From: an uncultured Desulfocapsa sp.
GTDB lineage: Bacteria; Desulfobacterota; Desulfobulbia; Desulfobulbales; Desulfocapsaceae
DNA: 64,000 nt
Assembly: GCA_947311435.1 (NCBI GenBank)
Contig: CAMZKT010000075.1
Coordinates: 1-64,000 of the forward strand
Direction of reading: 5' to 3'
Positions 4,751-51,413 of this stretch are shown here, piece after piece. Both the position numbers and the translations under genes were made by a program. The notes under the pieces were generated by a model. That model saw nothing but the letters and a program-made list of their open reading frames with translations. It did no database searches and was not told the DNA's origin. Position 1 is the stretch's first letter, and every line of letters starts with the position of its first letter.

Positions 4751-4951
4751 GCCAAACGCCCACCATTAGAATCCTTCTGATCTGGAAAAATCATTATATT
4801 GTATGTCACTGTCTGGATCTGCCTTATATATCTTCTTTTGGTATGCACCTCATGTATAGTGACATACAAACGGACGAAAATTAACGAAGATAATTGCTAT
4901 TGAGTAGTTACATTGACTCTCCCCTCAACTTGACTTCCAAACTGCCATGCA

Positions 4952-7431: not shown

Positions 7432-7470
7432 GTAACTGTGAGAGGAGACTGCTCCCCGTAAGCAGTTATC
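7432..7470. repeat. Imperfect hairpin ending in GTAACTG/CAGTTAT
   Basis: gtaactgtgagaggag actg ctccccgtaagcagttat between the PEP-synthase-like gene and the phosphatase gene. Confidence 0.45.
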
Positions 7471-30164: not shown

Positions 30165-30257
30165 CAACTATTCGCAATATATTAAGATAACAGCATAAAA
30201 ATAGGTGCCGGAGACAGAACACAGTACTCAGTCAAAGCGGAGTGTAATACAAAAAAG

Positions 30258-30367
30258 GTAACTATTCAGGAGCACCCCATCTCTGCACGGTCAAGCCTGA
30301 TTCACATAGGAGTTACTATAGTTCACAGGCTTGACTGCACAGATATGGGGCACTCCTGAGCAGTTAC
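30258..30367. repeat. Long imperfect palindrome (42-bp arms, 34/42 matching)
   Basis: GTAACTATTCAGGAGCACCCCATCTCTGCACGGTCAAGCCTG against the reverse complement of CAGGCTTGACTGCACAGATATGGGGCACTCCTGAGCAGTTAC, 26-nt loop. Confidence 0.8.
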
Positions 30368-30426
30368 AGTCTGTGGTTGTGCGTAATTCGGGCACCCACT
30401 TGAACAGTTACTCTCGATTTATCACT

Positions 30427-31815
30427 TTATTGTATTGCACCCGTCGAGGCGAACTTCATCTTCCGGCAGCACTTTATAAACCCCGCCACCCATTCGGGAG
30501 AGCCCATGGCATGAACATGCGTATAAAGTGCTAAAACATTATTCATCGTCAGCCCTTCACGTCCCCTGGAAAACCCCACGCCTCGTTTCATCTTCAATAC
30601 CAGTTCCTCTGAGTTACCTGTCCACTCAAGAATGGTGGAATAACGAAATTCATGCCCTTTAATCTCCATTCCCTTTTCGTAAAATGGATTGTCTTTCTCT
30701 ACTTCAAATATCGAATACCCATGTGCCTGTGGTTTCGTAGACATACCGAAACGAATAGGGAAAACTCCAGCCAGAGGATAGACAACTCCATCAAGTTCTA
30801 CGGATTCGCCGAGGTAAATCAAGCCACCACATTCAGCATAAATTGGCAGTCCATTTTCCGCAGCTTTTTTGACTGAGTGACGAAAGGATGTATTGGCAGC
30901 AAGCTCTCTTGGGCTTGTTTCCGGAAACCCGCCACCAATATACAAGCCATCAAGTTCCGGGAGTTCTTCAGCCTCCATCGCGTCAATACCAATCAACTCT
31001 GCTCCGGCATTTTCCAGTGCCTCAAGATTATCGGAATAATAAAACTGAAAAGCTGCATCCATAAACACTCCGACACGAAGATTTTTTTTACTTTTTTCAG
31101 CCTGTCTTAACAGAGTATTTTTTTTAAGAACGATTGGAGCCATAATGTCCTGAATCCTTTCAAGGTCAAGATGTTCTGTTGCTGTTTCCACAAGCAGTTG
31201 CATGGCCTCCTCACTCCCTTCGTATTCCTGGATGGGAGTGACACCCAGATGACGCATGGGGAAAATATCCCGTTTCATCCGTGGTAGCGCACCAAGAACA
31301 GGAAGGCCTGTATATTTTTCAACGGCCTGGGTGACAAGTGCTTGATGCCGTTTCGTTCCTATCTGGTTCAAGACAACTCCACGAATATCTATTCGTTCAT
31401 CAAGTTTCATGCAACCAAGAACCATGGCGGCTACAGTTCTGGTGGTTTTTGTACAATTCACCACCAAGAGAACCGGAAGTTTCAGAGTAAGGGACAACTC
31501 TGCCGTTGAATAGCCACCTTCCACATTCACTCCGTCATATAAACCACGATTGCCTTCAAGAACGACAAGATCGGCACCTTCTGCATGGGAAAGAAAGGAA
31601 GCCTGCATACTCTCAGTACTCATTAAAAAAGGATCGAGATTATAACAATTACGCCCCGCAGCAAGTTTCATCCAACCGGCGTCAATATAATCAGGTCCCT
31701 TTTTAAATGGAACCACACTCTTCCCCTGACGAACCAGAGCAGCTGTCAAGCCCACAGCAACAACGCTCTTCCCGGAGCCTCCGGAAAGACCCGCCACAAT
31801 TATTCCCTTTGTCAT
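30427..31815 (-). CDS. cbiA: Cobyrinic acid a,c-diamide synthase
   Basis: GLSGGSGKSVVAVGLTAALVRQGKSVVPFKKGPDYIDAGWM; IYAECGGLIYLGE amidotransferase domain. Confidence 0.9.
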   Translation of the reverse strand: MTKGIIVAGLSGGSGKSVVAVGLTAALVRQGKSVVPFKKGPDYIDAGWMKLAAGRNCYNLDPFLMSTESMQASFLSHAEGADLVVLEGNRGLYDGVNVEGGYSTAELSLTLKLPVLLVVNCTKTTRTVAAMVLGCMKLDERIDIRGVVLNQIGTKRHQALVTQAVEKYTGLPVLGALPRMKRDIFPMRHLGVTPIQEYEGSEEAMQLLVETATEHLDLERIQDIMAPIVLKKNTLLRQAEKSKKNLRVGVFMDAAFQFYYSDNLEALENAGAELIGIDAMEAEELPELDGLYIGGGFPETSPRELAANTSFRHSVKKAAENGLPIYAECGGLIYLGESVELDGVVYPLAGVFPIRFGMSTKPQAHGYSIFEVEKDNPFYEKGMEIKGHEFRYSTILEWTGNSEELVLKMKRGVGFSRGREGLTMNNVLALYTHVHAMGSPEWVAGFIKCCRKMKFASTGAIQ

Positions 31816-49835: not shown

Positions 49836-50999
49836 ATGCAAAACTTCGTATTTCACAATCCATGTAAAATTCTCTTTGGGAAGAACACGGTTCCGGCCAT
49901 TGGAACAGAGACACTCCTTCTCGGCAAAAGAGTCCTGCTAGTTTATGGCTCAGGATCCATAAAAAAAAACACTATTTACGAGCAGGTCATGCAGTCGCTT
50001 CTCGCCGCAGGAGCGATAATTACCGAACACGATGGCGTCCAGTCCAATCCAATTCTTTCCCATGTGCATAAAGGAATAGTGCTTGCGCGAACAAACCGCT
50101 GTGACGTTGTCTGCGCCGTTGGAGGCGGTTCTGTAATCGATGAAGCAAAAGCTATTTGCGCAGGAACAGTGGTTCAACATGATGTGTGGAAGTTTTTTAC
50201 CGGCAAAAAGAGTATAAAAAATCCTTTGCCACTCACCACAGTGCTTACCCTTGCAGCATCCGGCTCAGAAATGAATTCCGGCATGGTCATCACAAACGAT
50301 TCAACAGCACAAAAGTTTGGGTTTGCCAATAAACACCTCTATCCGAAAACATCCATTCTTGATCCCACCTGCACCTTTTCTGTCCCTCAAAACCACACTG
50401 CCTACGGTGCGATTGATGCTGTTTCTCACGTGCTTGAATGTTATTTTACCACCACAGATCCCCATACCCCTGTGCAGGACAGGCTGATGGAAGGCCTTGT
50501 GATCAACGCCATGGAAAGCTGTAATAGGGTATTGGAAAAAACAAACGACTACCATGCACGGGCAGACCTTATGTGGACTGCAAGCCTCGCCTTGAACGGC
50601 TTGACAAGTTCGGGGCTGGGAAAACTTGGTTTCCCCATGCATATGATAGAACATAGCCTCTCGGCCTTATATAATGTTCCACATGGGGCAGGCCTTTCTG
50701 CAATAATCCCGGGATGGATGCGATACAATATGAACAAACAGCCCCATCGATTCGCCCAATTCGCAGAACGTGTTTTTGACAAACGGACAGGGACCCTTGA
50801 AGAAAGAGCGACCCAGGGAGTAAGCTCACTCACTGACTGGTTTTCTAAAATTCAATCCCCGATAAGCATTACAGCACTGAATATCCCCCATACAGCAATA
50901 CCAGAGCTTGCTGAAAATGCGACTGCACTTGCCAAAATCTGGAGAATGCGAGATTATTCTGTGGAAAAGATAGTAGAAATACTGCATGCCTGTTTATAG
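49836..50999 (+). CDS. Iron-containing alcohol dehydrogenase
   Basis: VGGGSVIDEAKAICAG; AIDAVSHVLE; HMIEHSLSALYNVPHGAGLSAIIPG. Confidence 0.92.
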   Translation: MQNFVFHNPCKILFGKNTVPAIGTETLLLGKRVLLVYGSGSIKKNTIYEQVMQSLLAAGAIITEHDGVQSNPILSHVHKGIVLARTNRCDVVCAVGGGSVIDEAKAICAGTVVQHDVWKFFTGKKSIKNPLPLTTVLTLAASGSEMNSGMVITNDSTAQKFGFANKHLYPKTSILDPTCTFSVPQNHTAYGAIDAVSHVLECYFTTTDPHTPVQDRLMEGLVINAMESCNRVLEKTNDYHARADLMWTASLALNGLTSSGLGKLGFPMHMIEHSLSALYNVPHGAGLSAIIPGWMRYNMNKQPHRFAQFAERVFDKRTGTLEERATQGVSSLTDWFSKIQSPISITALNIPHTAIPELAENATALAKIWRMRDYSVEKIVEILHACL

Positions 51000-51140
51000 A
51001 TAAAAGATAACTACTCACGGGAGTACGCGAATTACTTTCACAAACCACCGATTTTGTAACTGCTTACAGAGTGCCGCAGTTTTTCGCAGGCAGGTTGGCG
51101 CAGCGTATATGTCAGACGTAAGCTATCCAGGAGAAACACA

Positions 51141-51413
51141 ATGATCAAAAAATATGACTACCAGGAGGGCTATTGCAAAAAACTTGGCCATTTCCTAACT
51201 TTTGCCTACTGCCGACACGCACAGCACAATCTCCCCTGTGACAAAGTATTAGATTGCTGGTTCCAATGTTTTCCTGTTGAGAAATTCATCACAGAAAATT
51301 ATTCAAGCGATGAGCAAAAGAGAATCTTTGCTCCACCCAAAGCAAAGGTCTTGAGCTTAACGGAAATATTGGAACAGGCACAACAACGAATCAGAGAAAA
51401 CAAAAATAAATAG
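51141..51413 (+). CDS. Small Cys-containing hypothetical protein
   Basis: 90 aa, GYCKKLGHFLTFAYCRHAQHNLPCDKVLDCWFQCFPV; RBS-like AGGAGA upstream. Confidence 0.55.
   Translation: MIKKYDYQEGYCKKLGHFLTFAYCRHAQHNLPCDKVLDCWFQCFPVEKFITENYSSDEQKRIFAPPKAKVLSLTEILEQAQQRIRENKNK

Follow-up and report, generated by a model that had tools for sequence, protein, structure and literature searches.

A palindromic, non-coding MITE family of the Desulfobulbales with terminal repeats shared by IS66-family elements

The repeat studied here, located about 51 kb into the window, i.e. the whole stretch of 64,000 nucleotides that was analysed, is flanked upstream by a gene for an iron-containing alcohol dehydrogenase and downstream by a small ORF on the same strand (Table 1). 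It had been predicted as an intergenic repeat at 51008–51095, homologous to an element at 30258–30411. Comparing the plus strand at 51007–51123 with the minus strand at 30411–30258 we found the shared blocks with the sequences quoted and in identical order, and BLASTN and a covariance model each link the two copies. Within the window BLASTN pairs 50999–51092 (+) with the reverse complement of 30240–30430 at ~70% identity (E ~1.5e-6 to 3e-6). The covariance model, trained on related copies from the order with the 51007 window copy left out, matches 51007–51176 (+) with E = 4.3e-12 and 30258–30411 (−) with E = 5.6e-15. Past ~51123 the former match contains non-standard pairs, and 51007–51123 matches positions 2–117 of the 159-position query (94%). 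The repeat is thus present at 51008–51095, as predicted, but these limits are too short, the homologous part being 51007–51123. The end motif GTAACTGYTCANGNGNGYNCC occurs four times in the window against 0.28 expected, and none of the 100 shuffled sequences, a control proposed together with the prediction, reached four occurrences. No target duplication is present at either window copy. The 51-kb copy, whose right arm is lost, is best read as a dead relic, and the 30-kb copy is a full-length relative from a second subfamily (family B).

Table 1: Features of the two repeat copies in the window and of the genes next to the 51-kb copy.
Feature	Position	Strand	Remark
Iron-containing alcohol dehydrogenase gene upstream of the 51-kb copy	49836..50999	+	Fe-ADH E 6e-43
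Family-A MITE, right-truncated copy	51007..51123	+	model positions ~1-117 of 158
Outer left terminal repeat ATAACTACTCACGGGA (consensus GTAACTACTCACGGGG)	51007..51022	+	
Head, separating the outer from the second terminal repeat	51023..51055	+	
Second, direct terminal repeat GTAACTGCTTACAGAG; palindrome left arm begins	51056..51071	+	
Left palindrome arm with the central loop; this copy lacks the right arm and right terminal repeat	51072..51123	+	
Small ORF downstream of the 51-kb copy, same strand, 90 aa	51141..51413	+	no Pfam match
Full-length family-B copy, 154 bp; head (5' end) at 30411	30258..30411	-	
Family-B copy, outer terminal repeat GTAACTGTTCAAGTGGGTGCC	30391..30411	-	
Family-B copy, inner direct terminal repeat GTAACTGCTCAGGAGTGCCCC	30347..30367	-	
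Family-B copy, closing inverted terminal repeat GTAACTATTCAGGAGCACCCC	30258..30278	+	
Family-B copy palindrome	30258..30367	.	42-nt arms 30258-30299 and 30326-30367, 81% complementary

In the aligned copies the full-length element measures ~158 bp and has no coding capacity. It begins with an outer end repeat (GTAACTACTCACGGGG), followed by a head of ~48 nt, a direct second end repeat (GTAACTGCTTACAGGG) and a long imperfect palindrome, at whose far end the end repeat stands inverted (CCCTGTGAGCAGTTAC), giving three end repeats per element, two direct and one inverted. The terminal inverted repeats at the element ends (GTAACTACTCAC... / ...GTGAGCAGTTAC) are of the GTAAC...GTTAC type. Family B, represented by the 30-kb copy, has the identical layout with the ends GTAACTGTTCAGG. 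This three-repeat layout, conserved across genera, is unusual. A few copies in the genome from which the window derives (own genome) (L057, L068) consist of the palindrome alone and are flanked by an 8-bp duplication of their own, complete or nearly so, which faintly hints that the inner repeat is able to act as an end too.

Queried with the 51-kb copy, the own genome gave 48 matches, the best of them at 86–93% identity, and the covariance model found 79 matches on many contigs at E <= 0.001, a number in which one palindrome may at times be counted on both strands, as at window 30224–30367. The proposed profile search thereby found further copies, and a dispersed non-coding repeat family, as originally predicted, is indeed present. 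The family-A consensus was matched in 47 of 258 genomes and in 23 of the 69 genera of the sulfur-cycling Desulfobulbales, with full-length matches near 80% identity to this consensus in other families and at least ~150 model matches in some genomes. Named records from a second collection are mostly MAGs of Desulfobulbaceae, Desulfocapsaceae and Desulfurivibrionaceae. One family-A copy (L197) comes from a contig of 5 kb that carries the label uncultured Sulfurovum (CAMZLC010000126.1), which may reflect a transfer outside the order or misbinning.

To take up the question of mobility, we compared the sequences flanking 107 full-length copies (nonredundant set). In 51 of them the flanks carry an exactly duplicated 8-bp target, and in 72 at least 7 of the 8 positions agree; with the right flanks shuffled, the average was 0.96 and the highest count 5. 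Duplications of other lengths (4–7 and 9–12) are exact in 0–2 copies each. The duplications fit the outer ends; taking the inner repeat as left boundary leaves mostly none. In the congener G015 the same gene pair is adjacent and the element absent, which is consistent with insertion, even if the ~70% identity is too low to demonstrate a clean empty site. The target duplications identify the element as a MITE moved by a DDE transposase. They also bear on another origin that might be thought of for a hairpin-rich, intergenic, high-copy repeat, namely a REP/BIME-type element mobilised by a HUH (Y1) transposase, such as a RAYT, that uses hairpins at the ends. HUH transposition of the REP/RAYT type makes no target duplications, contrary to what is seen at 72 of 107 copies, and the ends are true terminal inverted repeats that match IS66 ends (see below), so that we consider this origin extremely improbable.

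As GTAAC ends together with 8-bp duplications suggested IS66, we searched for a partner within this family. The congener G004 contains a 1728-bp single-ORF IS66 element in three copies of identical length, with the ends GTAACTATTCAGC, the duplication ATTGCTTC at one of the three copies and a 470-aa transposase assigned to IS66 by Pfam PF03050 and NCBIfam NF033517. The ends of further IS66 elements from the genus and the order were located by searching for inverted GTAA ends, and most elements with such ends show duplications identical in 8 of 8 positions. Four of them (L142, L144–L146) have ends matching those of the MITE, L150 has family-B-like ends (GTAACTGTTCAGGTCA), L151, L154 and L155 have the ends GTAACTACTCAGCC, and L158 and L162 have family-A-like ends (GTAACTACTCACCCC), all 15 bases of which are found in several MITE copies. 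The IS66 end variants GTAACTATTCAGC, GTAACTGTTCAGGT and GTAACTACTCACCCC thus mirror end variants of the MITE, the terminal inverted repeats being common to both, and the MITE has the GTAA-starting ends and the 8-bp duplication by which an IS66-mobilised element can be recognised. The agreement covers only the first ~11–16 bases; a short end match to the autonomous partner is usual for MITEs. An IS66 element bearing exactly the family-A end GTAACTACTCACGGGG was not found in the genus and order. The classical multi-gene IS66 elements of relatives were also considered as partner and rejected, their GTAAGCG ends not matching those of the repeat.

Neither PF03050 nor a full-length IS66 transposase query gave a match in the own assembly, and among the pattern matches listed for this genome, inspected by eye, there were no family-A end pairs 1–4 kb apart that would indicate an autonomous element. 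As the assembly is 88.8% complete and fragmented, loss of the IS66 gene and non-assembly are indistinguishable. No IS66 transposase was found either in the congener G016, which has 50 model matches, and thus mobilisation in this lineage is either not current or depends on a transposase that was not assembled. Judging from the shared ends, single-gene IS66-family elements of the genus and order are the likely mobilisers of the MITE. A single-gene, ISBst12-like IS66-family transposase supplied by another element in the same cell would recognise the MITE ends and insert the MITE by DDE transposition; in the lineage of the window this transposase would since have been lost, or have escaped assembly. 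The terminal inverted repeats, the 8-bp target duplications, the filled versus unoccupied locus and the IS66 elements with the same ends together sharpen what had been called possibly MITE-like: the element is shorter than ~200 bp, non-coding, multicopy and dispersed, with fixed-length duplications and terminal inverted repeats in common with an autonomous element. We are highly confident that the repeat is a ~158-bp non-coding MITE, most likely inserted in trans by a single-gene (ISBst12-like) IS66-family transposase.

Across a set of 44 diverse copies, 92% of the palindrome is paired. In 18 of its 47 pairs both sides have changed, with a covariation score of 0.201 against 0.040–0.066 for slid controls, and RNAalifold agrees with compensatory changes in 16 of 40 pairs. 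This covariation check, like the profile search, had been proposed with the original prediction, and it shows pairing kept by compensatory changes across the order. From the RNAalifold counts of G.T versus A.C pairs (325 vs 33) the strand polarity at first seemed strong. When the structure is strand-neutral, the counts fall to 303 vs 103 cells and 26 vs 13 columns, and on the tree to 123 G.T vs 81 A.C events on one strand (p = 0.004; columns 23 vs 10, p = 0.035), with no stronger G.T excess on internal branches (p = 0.87). The polarity, G.T being tolerated above A.C, is modest and suggestive only. Changes that preserve a pair are, in relative terms, more frequent on internal branches (p = 0.035; rough test).

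Such pairing either aids propagation or reflects template switching between the arms, and the data do not separate the two; selection or template-switch correction would maintain the pairing of the long palindrome in propagating lineages. Upkeep by replication template switching (quasipalindrome correction) with the pairing itself unselected is compatible with a MITE, and we regard it as a real possibility, since it accounts for compensatory changes without function and for copies without host-gene association, even if the one-strand G.T excess is unexpected under symmetric correction and the internal-branch excess of pair-keeping changes in this rough test fits selection in propagating lineages. 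It seems improbable that, in an order-wide MITE lineage with a conserved layout of three end repeats, propagation itself depends on a single-strand fold of defined polarity (RNA or ssDNA), in which case the substrate of an IS66-type DDE transposase would be folded or a cruciform, or the inner end repeat would control the choice of ends.

A structured regulatory element had been named as the other possible identity of the repeat, together with a check of its position relative to genes. Simple ORF calling places only five of 112 copies within called ORFs. The neighbouring genes of the copies are co-directional in 52, divergent in 17 and convergent in 14 cases (background 133, 41 and 31), so gene arrangements around the intergenic copies are in proportion to the background, and the copies are oriented antisense to genes in 33 and sense in 19 cases, i.e. 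with no sense bias. Over the 112 copies there was no enrichment for any gene context, with no preference in gene type, side or orientation. Rfam gave no match at the gathering score, and with a relaxed E-value only weak matches to microRNA families, far below that score. The long hairpin with its compensatory changes and the modest one-strand G.T excess are what one might expect of a structured regulatory RNA that happens to be repeated (a riboswitch-like leader, attenuator, terminator or mRNA-processing hairpin), transcribed and folding from the strand that starts with the head. Against it stand the background-like gene context, the orientation without sense bias, the target duplications at most copies, a G.T excess that does not grow on internal branches and the Rfam result, and we judge it very unlikely. 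A regulatory element is therefore not supported despite the conserved palindrome, and no host function or regulatory role is indicated for the MITE.

Several further repeats were observed, some of them in or beside copies of the MITE. The 30-kb copy is enclosed by an inverted repeat (GTGTAATACAAAAAAG / CTTTATTGTATTGCAC) at window 30242–30257 and 30425–30440, whose TCTCGATTTATCACTTTAT recurs exactly in L013 and L014; this copy looks like a small mobile element that entered a member of a different repeat family and retains no target duplication. At window 7432–7469 a mini-palindrome of 38 bp, its termini similar to the end repeat (GTAACTGTGAGAGGAG...CCCCGTAAGCAGTTAT), lies between two ORFs and is perhaps a further relic of the MITE family. 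At window 4801–4911 (−) the model gives a weak match (E 0.2) that starts with GTAACTACTCAA and adjoins a hairpin (TGTATGTCACT...AGTGACATACA); this may reflect chance or a copy that has decayed. In L057, at ~300–470, a palindrome-only copy of 110 bp has CCTTTTTT on both flanks, and right next to it lies an element of ~54 bp whose ends (GTAACTGTTCAGTGG...CGCTTGAATAGTTAC) resemble those of family B. Finally, a motif of 23–25 nt (GGTAAGCGA...GAGACTCCG, also in a longer form, GGTAAGCACCCTTAAAAACAGGGCATAAACTCCG) sits inside MITE copies and elsewhere (L172, L193, L210, L218, L219, L220, L235, L251 and L073), mostly in two related MAGs (JANTFJ, JANTGB) and once inside a MITE copy of the own genome. 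The motif has the look of a second mobile hairpin, far smaller than the MITEs in which it is nested.

In genomes of the Desulfobulbales, much of the intergenic repeat content is explained by this MITE family, and the covariance model lets annotators mask or name its copies. Some copies are located at or near contig ends, and such repeats may break assemblies. IS66 is a widespread, poorly studied transposase family; it is tied here to MITEs, whose natural end variants can be used to define what its transposase recognises.

Compared with the single-ORF (ISBst12-like) IS66 elements, the MITE has in common the GTAAC-starting terminal repeats, the 8-bp duplications and ~11–16 bp of end sequence, and it differs in its length of ~158 bp, the lack of a gene and the third (inner, direct) end repeat; its internal palindrome is absent from the IS66 ends examined. 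Among the bacterial MITEs that have been reviewed are Correia, ERIC, RUP, QMITE and Chunjie (PMC10969869, PMC2229807). Like these, the Desulfobulbales repeat is shorter than ~200 bp, non-coding and intergenic, with terminal inverted repeats, target duplications and a stable stem-loop, and mobilisation in trans by an IS, as described for them, is also our reading for it. Chunjie from Geobacter uraniireducens (PMC10969869) is likewise a MITE with direct repeats and dozens of mostly intergenic copies, but with 178–235 bp and from another genus; we set it beside the Desulfobulbales MITE by description. The two reviews (PMC10969869, PMC2229807) do not mention IS66, and in the open-access literature we found no published description of an IS66-linked or a Desulfobulbales MITE. 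Unlike the reviewed MITEs, the Desulfobulbales repeat is linked to IS66, has an asymmetric layout of head plus palindrome and is spread over a whole order. It apparently represents a new, so far undescribed MITE family of a familiar general kind with an unusual arrangement of three end repeats.
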